Position numbers and translations under genes: made by a program. Positions 589 through 53,552 of a stretch of DNA of 64,000 bases are shown one piece after another. Within the stretch, counting starts at the first letter, position 1. Each line of letters begins with the position of its first letter. This stretch comes from Pedosphaera parvula Ellin514 (GTDB lineage: Bacteria; Verrucomicrobiota; Verrucomicrobiia; Limisphaerales; Pedosphaeraceae): assembly GCF_000172555.1 (NCBI RefSeq), contig NZ_ABOX02000003.1, positions 186,001-250,000 on the forward strand, given 5' to 3'. The notes below the pieces were generated by a model, which was not told the DNA's origin, did no database searches, and saw only the letters and a program-made list of their open reading frames with translations.

Positions 589-1101
589 ATGCCAGCCAAG
601 TCGACGATCCACAATCCTGGTGCATCCAGCGTCCCCTTGCTCGAACAACACCCCTTTCTTCAGGGCATGAGCGCACACCAGGTGAAGATACTGGGTGACT
701 GTTCTCGGCAGGCGCACTTCGAACCGGGTGAGCTAATGTTTCGTGCAGGCGACCCGGCCGACCGGTTCTACCTCATTCAAAAGGGAAAAGTGGCGCTCGA
801 ATCGCGGACGCAGGACAAAGCCAACCAGCTCATCCAAAATATCGAAGCCGGTGAGGTGCTGGGTTGGTCATGGATGTTTCCACCCTGCTTCTGGCATTTT
901 GATGCCCGAGCCTTGGAATCGACGGATGCCATGTACATCCAGGGAAAACTCCTGCGCGAGGAATGTGAATCCGACCATGATCTCGGCTATGAACTCTACA
1001 AACGCATGGCTGAAGTAATGTTGAGCAGATTGCAGGCAACAAGACGCCGTTTATTGAAATTCGAGGGCAATCCCAACCTGGAAAATAAAAAGGCTGGTTG
1101 A
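589..1101 (+). CDS. Single-domain cyclic nucleotide-binding protein (Crp-like, no HTH)
   Basis: The 170-residue protein is essentially one cNMP-binding beta-roll. Residues 25-150 contain HFEPGELMFRAGDPADRFYLI and GEVLGWSWMFPP, followed by FDARALES, which is the phosphate-binding-cassette region. No helix-turn-helix follows, so it is not an obvious DNA-binding Crp; it may act as a ligand-sensing partner. A good AAGGAG ribosome site lies about 7 bases before the ATG. The paralog at 1262-1789 on the opposite strand shares most of its sequence. Adjacency to usp genes suggests a role in redox or energy stress, which is inference. Confidence 0.85.
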   Translation: MPAKSTIHNPGASSVPLLEQHPFLQGMSAHQVKILGDCSRQAHFEPGELMFRAGDPADRFYLIQKGKVALESRTQDKANQLIQNIEAGEVLGWSWMFPPCFWHFDARALESTDAMYIQGKLLREECESDHDLGYELYKRMAEVMLSRLQATRRRLLKFEGNPNLENKKAG

Positions 1102-1261
1102 ATGGCTTTGACAGCCCGATCAGCCGAACCGGAGGTGTGCTGAGGTTTTCATGCTGAAGCTCATTCGTCTCAAGCAGACCCTTGGCCTTGAGAGTTGCTC
1201 AATAAGCCTGACTTCGTGGCCCCTGCGCAGCAATCCAAAGAATCCATTGTCTGATCCGAAC

Positions 1262-1789
1262 TCACATGCACTTGCGAGAACAACCATTGGAATGCAGCAA
1301 TTGCCGTCGCGTGGCCTGCAAGCGTTCCATCATTACCTCGGCCATGCGTTTGTAGAGTTCATAACCAAGATCATGGTCGGTTTCGCATTCCTCCCGCAAC
1401 GGCGTGCCATAAAAGAATAGTGCTTCGGTGGATTCCACCGCGCGCGCATCAAAGTGCCAATAATAAGGTGGAAAGAGCCAGGACCAGCCGAGGACTTCGC
1501 CAGCACCTACCGTCTGGATTGGGGTGACCCCACGTTCCTTTACATACGATTCCAGCGCCACCTTTCCTTGATGGATAAGATAAAAGCGGTTGGCGGGATC
1601 GCCTTCTCTGAAAATCACTTCGCCGGGTCGAAAATTCACCACCATGCCACAGTCGCTGAGCAGGCGGAGTTGGTGCGGGCTAAACCCCTCCAGGAAGGGA
1701 TGACTCGCCATCATTGCCGGCAAACCGGCGGTGGTTATAATTCCCGATTGTGGAGTCCTCGAGGAAGTGGATTCAGTGATGGTATTCAT
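1262..1789 (-). CDS. Single-domain cyclic nucleotide-binding protein, paralog
   Basis: The 175-residue protein is a convergent paralog of the gene at 589-1101. Shared segments include HPFLEGFSPHQLRLLSDCG, PGEVIFREGDPANRFYLI, GEVLGWSWLFPPYYWHFDAR and ECETDHDLGYELYKRMAEVM. As in its paralog, a cNMP-binding fold is present without a C-terminal HTH. The two genes point at each other across a 160-bp gap with no clear terminator. The inverted arrangement suggests a local duplication with inversion. Start chosen at ATG 1789, after an AT-rich leader. Confidence 0.85.
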   Translation of the reverse strand: MNTITESTSSRTPQSGIITTAGLPAMMASHPFLEGFSPHQLRLLSDCGMVVNFRPGEVIFREGDPANRFYLIHQGKVALESYVKERGVTPIQTVGAGEVLGWSWLFPPYYWHFDARAVESTEALFFYGTPLREECETDHDLGYELYKRMAEVMMERLQATRRQLLHSNGCSRKCM

Positions 1790-1871
1790 ATTTAATTAAT
1801 TCCTTAATCTGCTGGCAGTCCCGACCCGTCCGTTGGCGTAAGTGTTACATAAATTGCGAAACACATGCCCC

Positions 1872-2120
1872 TCATGATGGTTGCCAAACCCCGCTGGCAA
1901 GTGGTTTGACCGGACTGGATTGCCTGGGTTTTTCCGTGTTCCGCCGCTGTTCAGCATCGTAAAGCGCGGATTCCTTTTCCAGCAGCATCACGATGAAGTA
2001 GAGAATGAAGAACACCGCGCCGAGTGGACGTCCCAGACCCCACTGTGAAGCTTCTCCGACATCGCTAAACCCAATGCCCAGGGCGATCAAGGAACAGGTA
2101 AGAAGAATTTTTTTTAACAT
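1872..2120 (-). CDS. Small exported or membrane protein of unknown function
   Basis: From the ATG at 2120 the product is 82 residues. It begins with MLKKILL and a hydrophobic signal-like stretch (ILLTCSLIALGIGFSDVGEA). A second hydrophobic segment (LGAVFFILYFIVMLLEKE) and a polar tail follow. The frame extends upstream to an alternative ATG at 2168, but the inner start gives a normal signal peptide. No family is recognised. It lies 198 bp upstream of, and divergent from, the first sigma factor gene. Confidence 0.55.
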   Translation of the reverse strand: MLKKILLTCSLIALGIGFSDVGEASQWGLGRPLGAVFFILYFIVMLLEKESALYDAEQRRNTEKPRQSSPVKPLASGVWQPS

Positions 2121-2278
2121 AAGTCTGCTTTCAGTTGAGATGAATGATTGTTTAGCATCACGATTCAAGTTTGACTGGGAAGCAGGATTTGGCTCTCCCT
2201 ATTTTGGCGAAACCTTCTCCTCAATTGTCGTTCGGAGAGGTAGCCCGGAGAAAACTTCCGGGCACAACACAGATTTTT

Positions 2279-2301
2279 TGTCGGATTCCTCCCCACAGCG
2301 G
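2279..2301 (+). promoter_or_regulatory. Candidate ECF-type promoter, copy 1
   Basis: TGTCGGATT, 11 bases, then CGG, located 17 bp before the sigma factor start at 2319. The same arrangement precedes the other two ECF sigma genes (5337-5358 and 16920-16941). This fits an autoregulated ECF promoter with the -35-like element TGTC(G/C)GATT and a -10-like CGG. The short distance to the ATG implies a very short leader. Confidence 0.6.
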
Positions 2302-2318
2302 GGATATACTTTCAAACA

Positions 2319-4082
2319 ATGACAAGCGACCTGGAATTGCTGCAAAACTACGTGAAGAACAAATCGGAAGAATCCTTCGCGGCTTTGGTGAATCGTCACC
2401 TCAACCTGGTCTATTCCGCCGCTCTCCGCCAGGTTCGCTCCCCGCAACTCGCCGAAGAAGTCGCTCAATCCACTTTTACCGATCTCGCCAGCAGTGCCCA
2501 CCGCCTCGCGCCCGACACCATCCTGGCCGCCTGGCTCTATCAAGTCGCCCACCGCACGGCCATCAACGTCGTCCGCCGCGAAGCCCGCCGTCAACTTCGT
2601 GAACAGGTCGCCTGTGAACTTACCGCCATGAACGCCACCACCGCCGACTGGACGCACATCGCTCCCCTTCTCGACGAAGCCATGCACGCGCTCGATAACA
2701 CCGACCGCACCGCCGTCCTGCTTCGTTATTTCGAGAATAAATCCCTGCGTGAAGTCGGCCAAACTCTTGGGGTCAGTGATGATGCCGCCCAAAAACGCGT
2801 CGGCCGCGCCGTCGAACGTCTCCGTGAGTTTTTCACCAAACGCGGCATCACCATCGGCGCGAGCACTCTTGTCGTCATCCTCTCCGCCAATGCGGTCCTG
2901 GCAGCACCCATCACTCTCTTCACCGCCATCACGACAGCCACTGCACTCACCGGAACAATAACTACTGCCACCGCCACCCAGGCCGTCGCCATGACCACAC
3001 TCCAAAAGACATTAATTGCCACCGCACTCGCCGCCGCCGTTGGCGTGGGAATCTACGAGTCCCGCCAGTCTTCAAATTACCGAAGCCAGTTCCAAACCGC
3101 GCAACAACAGCAACGTTTGCTGAGCGAACAAATCACTCGCCTCACCCAGGAGCGTGATGATGCCATGCACCGCCTCGCCTCAATCGGCAACGGCAACCAA
3201 TCTTCGAACCAGAACTCAGCCCAACTGCTCAAACTCCGCGCCGAAGTAACACGTCTTCGAAATGAGCAGGACAGACTTGCACAATTGTTAAACGAAGATT
3301 CCACGCTCTCCCCCGACCCGATGGAAATGCGTGCCAAACTCTGGATGGATAAAGTCAGAAGACTGAAAGAGAAACTGGAACAAAATCCCGGCAAGTCCAT
3401 ACCTGAACTAAAATATCTCAGCGATCAGGATTGGCTGGAGGTGGTTAAGGACGCAGATGTCGTCACCGATTGGGGATACAAGGAAGCCTTGGCTCGACTC
3501 AGAAAACTGGCCAAGGACAAGTTCGCTCCCAGACTGTCCCGTGCTTTGCGTGAGTATGCCCGGGCAAACAATAACGAACTGCCTCCTGATACTGCCGCAC
3601 TGAAGCCCTATTTCGCATCCCCTGTTGAAGACGCCGTGCTCGAGCGTTACCAACTATTACACACAGGCCCCGTGAAGTGGGACGAATGGGTGCTGGCGGA
3701 AAAAGCCCCTGCAGACGACCAGAAGGATACCATCTTTAAAGTCGGCCCGACCGGACTCCAATTCAGCAATAGCAGTAGCATGGGCGAAAGCGGCAGCCAA
3801 ATGTGGGGAACAAATGATCCGCCATTATCAGTCATCGCGCAAAGCGAGGCCAGCCAGAGAAACACTTCAGACGAAGAACTAAAATCCTTCACAAAATCTT
3901 TCATGGAGGATCAAGCCAACGCTCGTGATGGGAAAGTCCTGGATCAAGCTTTCAAAGCGTTCTCCGCAGCCAATCCCGGACAGGAACCTAAATCACCGAA
4001 TGAAATCAAACCTTATCTCCAAACCACCGCGGAAAAGGACGCCTTTGACCGATTGATCAAACGCAACAATGTCTCAAACTGA
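2319..4082 (+). CDS. ECF sigma factor with membrane anchor and long extracytoplasmic tail
   Basis: Residues 1-175 form a sigma-70 family ECF factor: region 2 around 18-85 (SFAALVNRHLNLVYSAALRQ, AEEVAQSTFTDLA) and region 4 around 125-172 (VLLRYFENKSLREVGQTLG, SDDAAQKRVGRAVERLREFF). A Gly/Ala/Thr-rich hydrophobic region (180-245) holds two possible membrane segments around NAVLAAPITLFTAITTATAL and TLIATALAAAVGVGIY. A coiled coil (250-330) and a roughly 250-residue domain follow. ECF factors are normally about 190 residues, so this one is probably tethered and its tail senses an envelope signal. The gene at 5366 shares the same tail type (SIPELKYLSDQDWL, PVEDAVLERYQLL). Confidence 0.9.
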   Translation: MTSDLELLQNYVKNKSEESFAALVNRHLNLVYSAALRQVRSPQLAEEVAQSTFTDLASSAHRLAPDTILAAWLYQVAHRTAINVVRREARRQLREQVACELTAMNATTADWTHIAPLLDEAMHALDNTDRTAVLLRYFENKSLREVGQTLGVSDDAAQKRVGRAVERLREFFTKRGITIGASTLVVILSANAVLAAPITLFTAITTATALTGTITTATATQAVAMTTLQKTLIATALAAAVGVGIYESRQSSNYRSQFQTAQQQQRLLSEQITRLTQERDDAMHRLASIGNGNQSSNQNSAQLLKLRAEVTRLRNEQDRLAQLLNEDSTLSPDPMEMRAKLWMDKVRRLKEKLEQNPGKSIPELKYLSDQDWLEVVKDADVVTDWGYKEALARLRKLAKDKFAPRLSRALREYARANNNELPPDTAALKPYFASPVEDAVLERYQLLHTGPVKWDEWVLAEKAPADDQKDTIFKVGPTGLQFSNSSSMGESGSQMWGTNDPPLSVIAQSEASQRNTSDEELKSFTKSFMEDQANARDGKVLDQAFKAFSAANPGQEPKSPNEIKPYLQTTAEKDAFDRLIKRNNVSN

Positions 4083-16076: not shown

Positions 16077-16090
16077 TTATACCGAATGCC
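16077..16090 (+). repeat. Short partial copy of the TTATACCGAATGCC repeat end
   Basis: The 14 bases TTATACCGAATGCC are identical to the outer terminal inverted repeat of the element at 37261-37522. Only the end is present here, 47 bp before the next gene. Confidence 0.5.
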
Positions 16091-37260: not shown

Positions 37261-37522
37261 TTATACCGAATGCCAAAAGAAATTTCCGAATGGCAGGAGG
37301 GATTTTGGTTTGAGGCAAGGCGGAGGCCGCAGGCGCTATCCTTAGATAGCGGCCAGGCCGACAACGCCGCTTCAAATCAAAAGCACCCTGTTCCCAACAA
37401 CTAACGAATTTCCTCGCCCTCAAAGTTCATGGCTTTTTCAGCCTCCACTTTCATCAGGCTTATCACCTGTTTTCATTCCAGTTCTTTTCCATTTCGGAAA
37501 TTAATTTTGGCATTCGGTATAA
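37261..37522. mobile_element. MITE-like element with 18-bp perfect terminal inverted repeats
   Basis: TTATACCGAATGCCAAAA at 37261-37278 is exactly inverted at 37505-37522, and similarity continues inward (AATTTCCGAA...). The 262-bp element has no ORF of note and includes an internal hairpin around GCGCTATCcttaGATAGCGGC (near 37338-37356). A second, truncated copy (43203-43254) and a bare end (16077-16090) occur in the window. No target duplication is obvious. Confidence 0.65.
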
Positions 37523-37728: not shown

Positions 37729-37966
37729 GCACCATCTGTTTGATGAGCAATGAGAATTAACTGTAAGCGCAAATAACATACCCCTGATTATACCCTATCC
37801 CAAAATCACTACAGGGAACATTCCAAATGTCATAGCAGGACACCAAGAATATAACAAAGACTTGGGCAAATCATTCGGTGAATGTTGCAGCATAGTGCAG
37901 TGGCTGACCCACTTGTTGCCTGTTTAAGTCACAAATGTTAACCTCCTGAAGATCTGCACACTCCCT

Positions 37967-43202: not shown

Positions 43203-43254
43203 TATACCGAATGCCAAAGGAAATTTCCGGATGACAGGAGGGATTTTGGTTTGA
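43203..43254 (+). repeat. Truncated copy of the TTATACCGAATGCC element
   Basis: Fifty-two bases match the left end of the element at 37261 (TATACCGAATGCCAAAgGAA to GGAGGGATTTTGGTTTGA) with a few changes. The other end is not present. It begins 12 bp after the end of the frameshifted gene. Confidence 0.65.
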
Positions 43255-53030: not shown

Positions 53031-53184
53031 TCCATCGTTTGAAGAGCCGTGACAAACAAAAAGACTCCTTTTAATCACCGGGTTGGCCGCCCTGTAAATT
53101 TGCCGTTACAAAAATTCTTCTTGGCATTTTCTCAAAACGGGATTAACAACACCACGCTCTTTGAAAACGATGAACAAATAGTTC

Positions 53185-53330
53185 ATCTGCAATACAATCA
53201 AATGTCAGGGAACCCCGTGAGAATCGGGGACGGTTACGCCACTGTAACGGGTTACAGACTCCCACAGCCACTGGTCAACAGCCGGGAAGGCGGGAGCGAG
53301 ATTCGAAACCCCAAGTCAGGATATCGGTTT
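53185..53330 (+). promoter_or_regulatory. Cobalamin (B12) riboswitch
   Basis: The core follows the cobalamin aptamer order. CAGGGAACCCCGTGAGAATC begins at 53206. GCCACTGTAACGGG (B12 box region) lies at 53238-53251, CAGCCACTGG near 53265, CCGGGAAGGCGGGAG at 53282-53296 and CCAAGTCAGGATA at 53311-53323. It sits about 220 bp before the gene at 53553 on the same strand. Two small hairpins (ATTCTGC/GCAGAAT and CTTCTC/GAGAAG around 53347-53383) follow and could belong to the switching platform. Such riboswitches usually turn off expression when B12 is abundant. Confidence 0.93.
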
Positions 53331-53552
53331 GATTGTGCTCGTCGTGATTCTGCAACGCAGAATCAACTTCTCCGTCAAGAGAAGGATGAGGCCAGCCTGC
53401 CGATCTGTTTTCGTCAGGATTCGCTGAATGCCTTCATTCCCCGTTTTGCCGGAGTCTGAAGGTTTTTCTATGCCCTGAAATCTTCGGTCTCCGCACTGGT
53501 CTCTCAATCATCAACCCTCCGCACCCGTCCGCGGAAAATTGAAAGATCAGTC

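Follow-up and report, generated by a model that had tools for sequence, protein, structure and literature searches.

The window, meaning the whole 64-kb stretch of contig C3 that was analysed, comes from the draft genome of Pedosphaera parvula Ellin514 (7.41 Mb in 102 contigs, 95.9% complete) and contains at positions 37261-37522 a MITE without coding capacity (Table 1). An earlier note made from the letters of the window had described a 262-bp non-coding element with exact 18-bp inverted ends, and both parts of this description are borne out: no ORF of at least 80 aa overlaps the interval, and the 18-bp copies at 37261-37278 (+) and 37505-37522 (-) are perfect inversions of each other. The matching continues inward to a TIR of approximately 30 bp. 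The element shared with other copies starts with TATACCG, and the first base before it varies among those copies, so the outermost T of the 18-mer is flanking sequence that pairs by chance; the exact inversion stands, but its first base is not part of the element. We write the end type of this MITE as TATACCGAATGCC.

Allowing up to three mismatches, the 18-mer occurs at five sites in the 64-kb window, against 0.05 expected from shuffled sequences. The fragment that had been noted at 43203 is indeed a truncated copy of the element's beginning. The 14-bp end match at 16077 is likewise present, but it comprises the first 14 bases alone, and it is possibly a relic and possibly chance rather than an established degraded copy. 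A weaker end-like site with three mismatches lies at 37788. Folded as DNA, the element reaches -58.8 kcal/mol, compared with -28.5 kcal/mol for shuffled versions (z -8.1). Elsewhere in the window, a Cobalamin riboswitch at 53183-53346 (+) scored 74.3 bits (gathering score 31.5).

Table 1. Positions of the MITE, its parts and related sequences (window coordinates unless a contig is given)
Feature	Position	Strand
MITE copy, 260 bp including the TA at each end	37262..37521	+
Proposed element proper, with TA on either side	37264-37519	+
Left TIR, ~30 bp (18 exact, 2 mismatched, 10 matched)	37261..37290	+
Right TIR	37493..37522	-
Predicted hairpin of the interior, with a structured tip on the stem CAGGAGGGATTTTGGTTTGAGGC / GCTTCAAATCAAAAGCACCCTG; best-conserved part of the element	37294..37390	+
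Hairpin core fitting the model of the shared motif (17.5 bits with R1; 32.5 bits with R2, whose score is not independent because the model includes sister copies)	37307..37376	+
Fast-evolving spacer	37391..37492	+
Truncated copy, matching the first 52 bp of the MITE with 3 mismatches	43203..43254	+
14-bp end match, possible relic	16077..16090	+
Decayed IS630 transposase piece (L061), sole DDE_3 match of the genome	C10:27508-27630	

Copies and insertion sites

The MITE is far from alone in its genome. Matches of at least 139 bp with 75-100% identity were found at no fewer than 40 distinct places; only 40 of the 101 candidates were scored, so 40 long copies is a lower bound. Near-exact ends number 102 (54 forward, 48 reverse), whereas the reversed pattern gave 0 in either orientation. 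The expectation of further copies is therefore clearly confirmed.

The 30 best copies, without the truncated L025, gave a set of 29 near-full copies. These run from TA to TA with few changes, from a TATACCG-like start to a CGGTATA-like end, and the sequence outside the ends differs between copies. The TA is preceded by C or T in 26 of the 29 and followed by A or G in 23, which, together with the TA ends, fits insertion at YTAR with duplication of the TA. For eight of the 29 with close flanking ORFs, the flanks were joined at one TA and compared with seven family genomes; this returned flank matches lacking the MITE (e.g., for L009), none of them cleanly crossing the junction. The evidence for a presumed 2-bp target duplication lies in the TA ends of the copies rather than in an empty site. 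The single near-whole copy of the sister genome G001 (L063) has AA and TT at its borders instead of TA, and a study of the IS630-family element ISY100 reports AA/TT insertion as a minority outcome (PMC2170065).

Mean pairwise divergence among the 29 copies is 11%, and two copies are identical. Some variants have lost the tip of the interior hairpin (L145, L147, L149, L151-L153), and others hold another, nested inverted-repeat element (L143, L146, L150, L154, L159). In L143 and L146, on contigs C30 and C3, a MITE with GAGCCTG ends is inserted in the hairpin of the window's MITE family, at one of the two with a perfect 3-bp duplication, so that hairpins here are targets of other hairpin elements. 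L154 (C10:148082-148637) is a copy of the window's MITE in which the nested element has GTATCTACACAAGTC inverted ends.

The copies are intergenic, with no clear gene broken, and their excision restores no convincing ORF (the two that appear are short, 92 and 142 aa). They often lie less than 100 bp from an ORF; by a crude ORF call, 7 of the 29 are in convergent, 7 in divergent and 15 in tandem contexts. Beyond the source genome, matches to the MITE were obtained in eight others of the same order (9 of 146 genomes in all), several of which share little beyond the ends. In one genome, G012, many end motifs are situated ~100-450 bases from a contig start (contigs such as C9, C10, C86 and C116), which suggests that these repeats break its assembly.

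IS630-type transposases with matching ends

The earlier note had attributed the spread of the element to past mobility, probably driven by a transposase elsewhere in the genome. Past mobility is well supported by the copies; the candidate driver, however, was found in relatives and not in the source genome. A search of that genome with PF13358 (DDE_3) returned one decayed IS630 piece (Table 1), a 109-aa open frame without matching ends. In relatives, full-length transposons with the same ends do occur. The DDE_3 search of eight MITE-matching relatives yielded L087, L088 and L092, each with the MITE end motif nearby. The assembly of the source genome contains no match to the transposase protein of the L088 clade, and its mobilisation of the MITE is consequently read from those relatives.

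The L088 protein matches 83 of 320 genomes of the order (E ≤ 0.001), mostly through distant IS630 proteins; the closest transposases, with 51-100% identity, are those of G132, G029, G088, G150, G081, G051, G167, G001 and G069. The end motif TGCCANAANNNATTTCC adjoins the gene with at most one mismatch in six of these nine close-clade genomes, compared with one of 21 distant IS630 loci. Two more of the nine show the motif with three mismatches, as can also arise by chance, and it is absent beside the transposase at L109 (G081). Both ends are present at L105 (G132) and L106 (G029), and six further genomes have the end motif on one side, weakly in two of the six. L106 is 1,140 bp long with one intact ORF of 364 aa. 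The putative mobiliser transposases match DDE_3 (PF13358) and score as IS630 with NF033545 (197 bits for L106 and 189 bits, cut-off 100). Among named records, the same end motif occurs in the Verrucomicrobia MAGs RA.bin74 and RYN_621, in seven stretches altogether. The IS630 element at L105 (G132, C268), which has MITE-type ends, is itself split by another IS630-type transposase gene that runs in the opposite direction; the L088 ORFs at this element lie at 976-1941 (+) and 1878-2954 (-).

Since the same ends are found on IS630 insertion sequences of the same order, one of them intact, the element at 37261-37522 is most likely an IS630-derived MITE moved by an IS630-type transposase. Movement by a transposase of some other family, with the shared end motif a coincidence, would agree with the lack of the clade's IS630 in the source genome; such a coincidence is nevertheless hardly credible when nearly exact motifs accompany most genes of one clade and a single locus among the distant ones.

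In the IS630 scheme, a full insertion sequence that the cell once contained, or at times still contains, would provide the transposase in trans. This enzyme would bind the ~30-bp inverted ends and cut the MITE out, and the excised MITE would be joined into a TA, preferably within YTAR; the mobiliser itself would since have been lost or be missing from the assembly. This cut-and-paste chemistry is proposed by analogy with ISY100 of Synechocystis, which inserts almost only at TA with TA duplication and whose transposase alone carries out excision and insertion at TA (PMC2170065). Unlike the window's MITE, ISY100 is autonomous and belongs to another phylum, and its mechanism alone is carried over.

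A conserved hairpin in the interior of the MITE

Judged from sequence comparison, the interior of the MITE does not derive from a transposase by deletion; it is a structured hairpin of a class that MITEs with different ends share across Verrucomicrobiota. This conserved hairpin, and its presence in other transposon families, had not been noticed in the earlier note. Among 28 distinct copies, 15 private changes fall in 98 hairpin columns compared with 49 in 103 spacer columns, a count that spacer misalignment may inflate, and shared changed cells number 77 in the hairpin versus 332 in the spacer. Over the element as a whole, compensatory changes are seen at three predicted pairs, of which two belong to the hairpin tip.

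The low number of private changes, combined with the intergenic position of the copies and their frequent proximity to an ORF, would also be expected of a regulatory repeat domesticated by the host as a terminator, mRNA stabiliser or source of sRNA. We regard this as quite improbable: no rule of orientation or position is evident among the 29 copies, and the sister genome yielded only one near-whole copy, which argues against a conserved host role.

A common hairpin was suggested by eye from the nested elements and relatives. Of the seven sequences from which the covariance model R1 was built, five come from elements of the source genome, nested or separate, and two from an element of G069 with IS630-type ends; the model contains no copy of the window's MITE. 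Applied to 43 sources (213 kb), R1 found its best matches outside the training set in the hairpins of IS630-type MITEs of G132 (21.6-26.2 bits); the family of the window's MITE reached up to 24.5 bits, and the window copy itself had an E-value of 0.078 in the 213 kb. In 94.6 kb, 28 of the 29 copies were matched at the hairpin and nowhere else (E ≤ 1), copies of one family not being independent tests. A refined model, R2, was made from 74 matches, and the E-values of both models are rough.

Distribution of the hairpin and its carriers

In the source genome, R1 matches 28 places at E ≤ 1, and for 25 of these E is 1.1e-6 or lower. Across the order, it detects a hairpin of ~72 nt in 56 of 146 genomes, the source genome included (E ≤ 0.001), with at least 34 copies in the richest genomes. 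R2 matches 20 of 387 genomes of the phylum, again including the source genome (E ≤ 1e-4; 12 candidates scored per genome). In the 74 loci examined, three of which lie at contig edges and several of which are copies of one family, 54 hairpins are situated inside an outer inverted repeat (score ≥13, span 120-420); the same is true of 7 of 505 control positions taken from these loci.

The commonest carrier has the ends GAGCCTGTYTKAAAATT. Of 23 loci tried for this type, 18 have the end pair, and 10 of the 17 distinct pairs are bordered by a perfect 3-bp duplication of the TNA type. Ends resembling GAGCCTGTYTKAAAATT also flank both sides of two insertion sequences with a DDE_Tnp_1 transposase, L267 (949 bp, IS5) and L280 (1,680 bp, IS1182). 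As judged by their ends, at least two unlike groups of transposons carry the hairpin, one of the IS630 type (the window, L064 and L065) and one of the IS5/IS1182 type. Further RNA matches were recorded near carriers. At L064, three tRNA matches (886-1039 and 1576-1645) surround the hairpin MITE of G069, one of them starting at its end, and at L219 an Acido-Lenti-1 RNA (RF01687, 38 bits, gathering score 37) is located at 2556-2601 (-), about 1 kb from a hairpin element.

The TIRs form 8, 11, 19 and 28 clusters at 60, 65, 70 and 75% identity, respectively; the 99th percentile of chance TIR similarity is 61%. Hairpin cores in different genomes and between unrelated ends are nearly identical, L161 agreeing with L190 at 60, with L193 at 59 and with L195 at 55 of 62 positions, although the inspected loci were the best-scoring ones and identity between families is therefore biased upward.

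Structure of the hairpin

Alignment A5 comprises 73 distinct hairpins and was fitted to the model structure, so that its pairing statistics are biased towards that structure. Standard pairs fill 88.7% of its cells; shuffling the partners lowers this to 72.2%, and sliding them to 44.1% or less. Changes on both sides occur in 12 of 18 pairs, with 176 doubly changed cells compared with 51 after shuffling. The unpaired A12, A108 and C109 are fixed at 100%; C10, G13 and G113 are also at 100% and G14 at 99%, although G13 and G14 often do not form the pairs assigned to them. The GA flanking the internal loops on both sides is present in 60-96%. TTTT before the core together with AAAA-purine after it is found in 41 of 75 hairpins, against 9 of 1,499 random positions.

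Many elements of ~270 bp contain a second hairpin in the opposite orientation, ~110 bp away, and 28 of 48 loci have a CCC-NNN-GGG mini-hairpin close to the hairpin, compared with 9 of 707 controls. Eight whole elements were folded. Seven are of the long type and broadly give a TIR stem, the first hairpin, the mini-hairpin and the second hairpin; the one short element gives a single hairpin. The window's MITE also has a single hairpin, of the GGGATTTTGG...CAAAAGCACC type, with the spacer where the second would be.

These features bear on the question of whether the hairpin has any function of its own. It may instead descend from one old MITE whose ends were changed or swapped and whose palindrome was kept by correction between its arms. 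The arms of hairpins are prone to mutual correction, many of the end types share a loose G-rich start, and single linkage merges most of them at 60-65% identity, points that speak for such a history. We nevertheless consider it unlikely, because arm correction predicts perfect palindromes, yet three unpaired letters are invariant and tandem GA mismatches are kept; nor would it readily account for cores so closely alike between genomes when the ends of the elements are unrelated. Covarying stems combined with fixed unpaired letters suggest instead recognition as a folded strand. Given this conservation in both pairing and unpaired letters, the hairpin is probably recognised in that form, as RNA or single-stranded DNA, by a protein.

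Comparison with known systems

No Rfam family matched at or above its gathering score over the hairpin in the window, in five loci or in eight loci. Among the papers listed on MITEs, IS630, cruciforms and structured RNA of Verrucomicrobia, none describes the hairpin, and those listed for the letters of its motif were unrelated, as judged by titles and the beginnings of abstracts. The L182 hairpin had no blastn match in plasmids or phages, and two patterns searched in viral contigs gave no match. For the L215 hairpin, 13 plasmid records were returned and five examined; these are judged to be chance matches, since the best, from Sinorhizobium, scores 21 bits with R2 and the overlapping S. meliloti match is annotated as a sugar kinase. 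Integron attC sites, which carry RYYYAAC/GTTRRRY boxes, were also considered and set aside, as inspection of the hairpin consensus showed these boxes to be missing.

Nezha, Correia/NEMIS and RUP are MITEs linked to IS630 and to TA duplication. Like these IS630/Tc1-mariner-type MITEs, the window's MITE is short, non-coding, bounded by TIRs, present in many copies and, by our reading, mobilised in trans; it differs in its TIR sequence and in holding a conserved structured hairpin, which MITEs of other transposon families carry as well. All three are named as bacterial MITEs in a published account, which also reports REPs from a member of the Verrucomicrobia, Opitutus terrae (PMC3733652). REP/REPIN elements (GTAG and CGTC classes, with RAYT tyrosine transposases) resemble the present hairpin in being palindromic, structured, multi-copy and often arranged as inverted pairs. 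However, REPs measure 20-40 bp and bear a GTAG or CGTC tag, whereas the hairpin spans ~72-110 nt, lies inside TIR-bounded elements and shows neither tag at either end in the column frequencies of the 73 distinct hairpins.

Interpretation

Considered as a whole, the locus is best explained as an IS630-family MITE moved in trans that carries a structured hairpin of a shared class, probably read by a protein, and in this explanation we have high confidence. We favour the view, unproven as it is, that the hairpin is a structured passenger read by some protein. It would help the element to persist or move, whichever transposase carries it, and could either act as an aid in cis to transposition or survival or have a separate role as a structured RNA or DNA.

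A more far-reaching version, which we put forward tentatively and at somewhat below an even chance, is that the hairpin represents a phylum-wide RNA or single-stranded DNA module, hitchhiking in IS630, IS5/IS1182 and other MITEs regardless of the transposase and read by a conserved protein. Such a module would occur singly in elements of ~165 bp or as an inverted pair around the CCC-NNN-GGG mini-hairpin, and the paired form would fold as a cloverleaf whose closing stem is the TIR of its carrier.

Taken by itself, the MITE is of an ordinary, known kind; the hairpin that it shares with other elements makes it possibly the edge of something undescribed. The interiors of MITEs are usually taken as filler, whereas here a folded sequence appears to be kept across the phylum while the ends change. 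If this is true, small transposons can carry a structured nucleic-acid part that has nothing to do with their transposase and can be selected for it, and the hairpin motif would serve as a handle for finding the protein that reads it.
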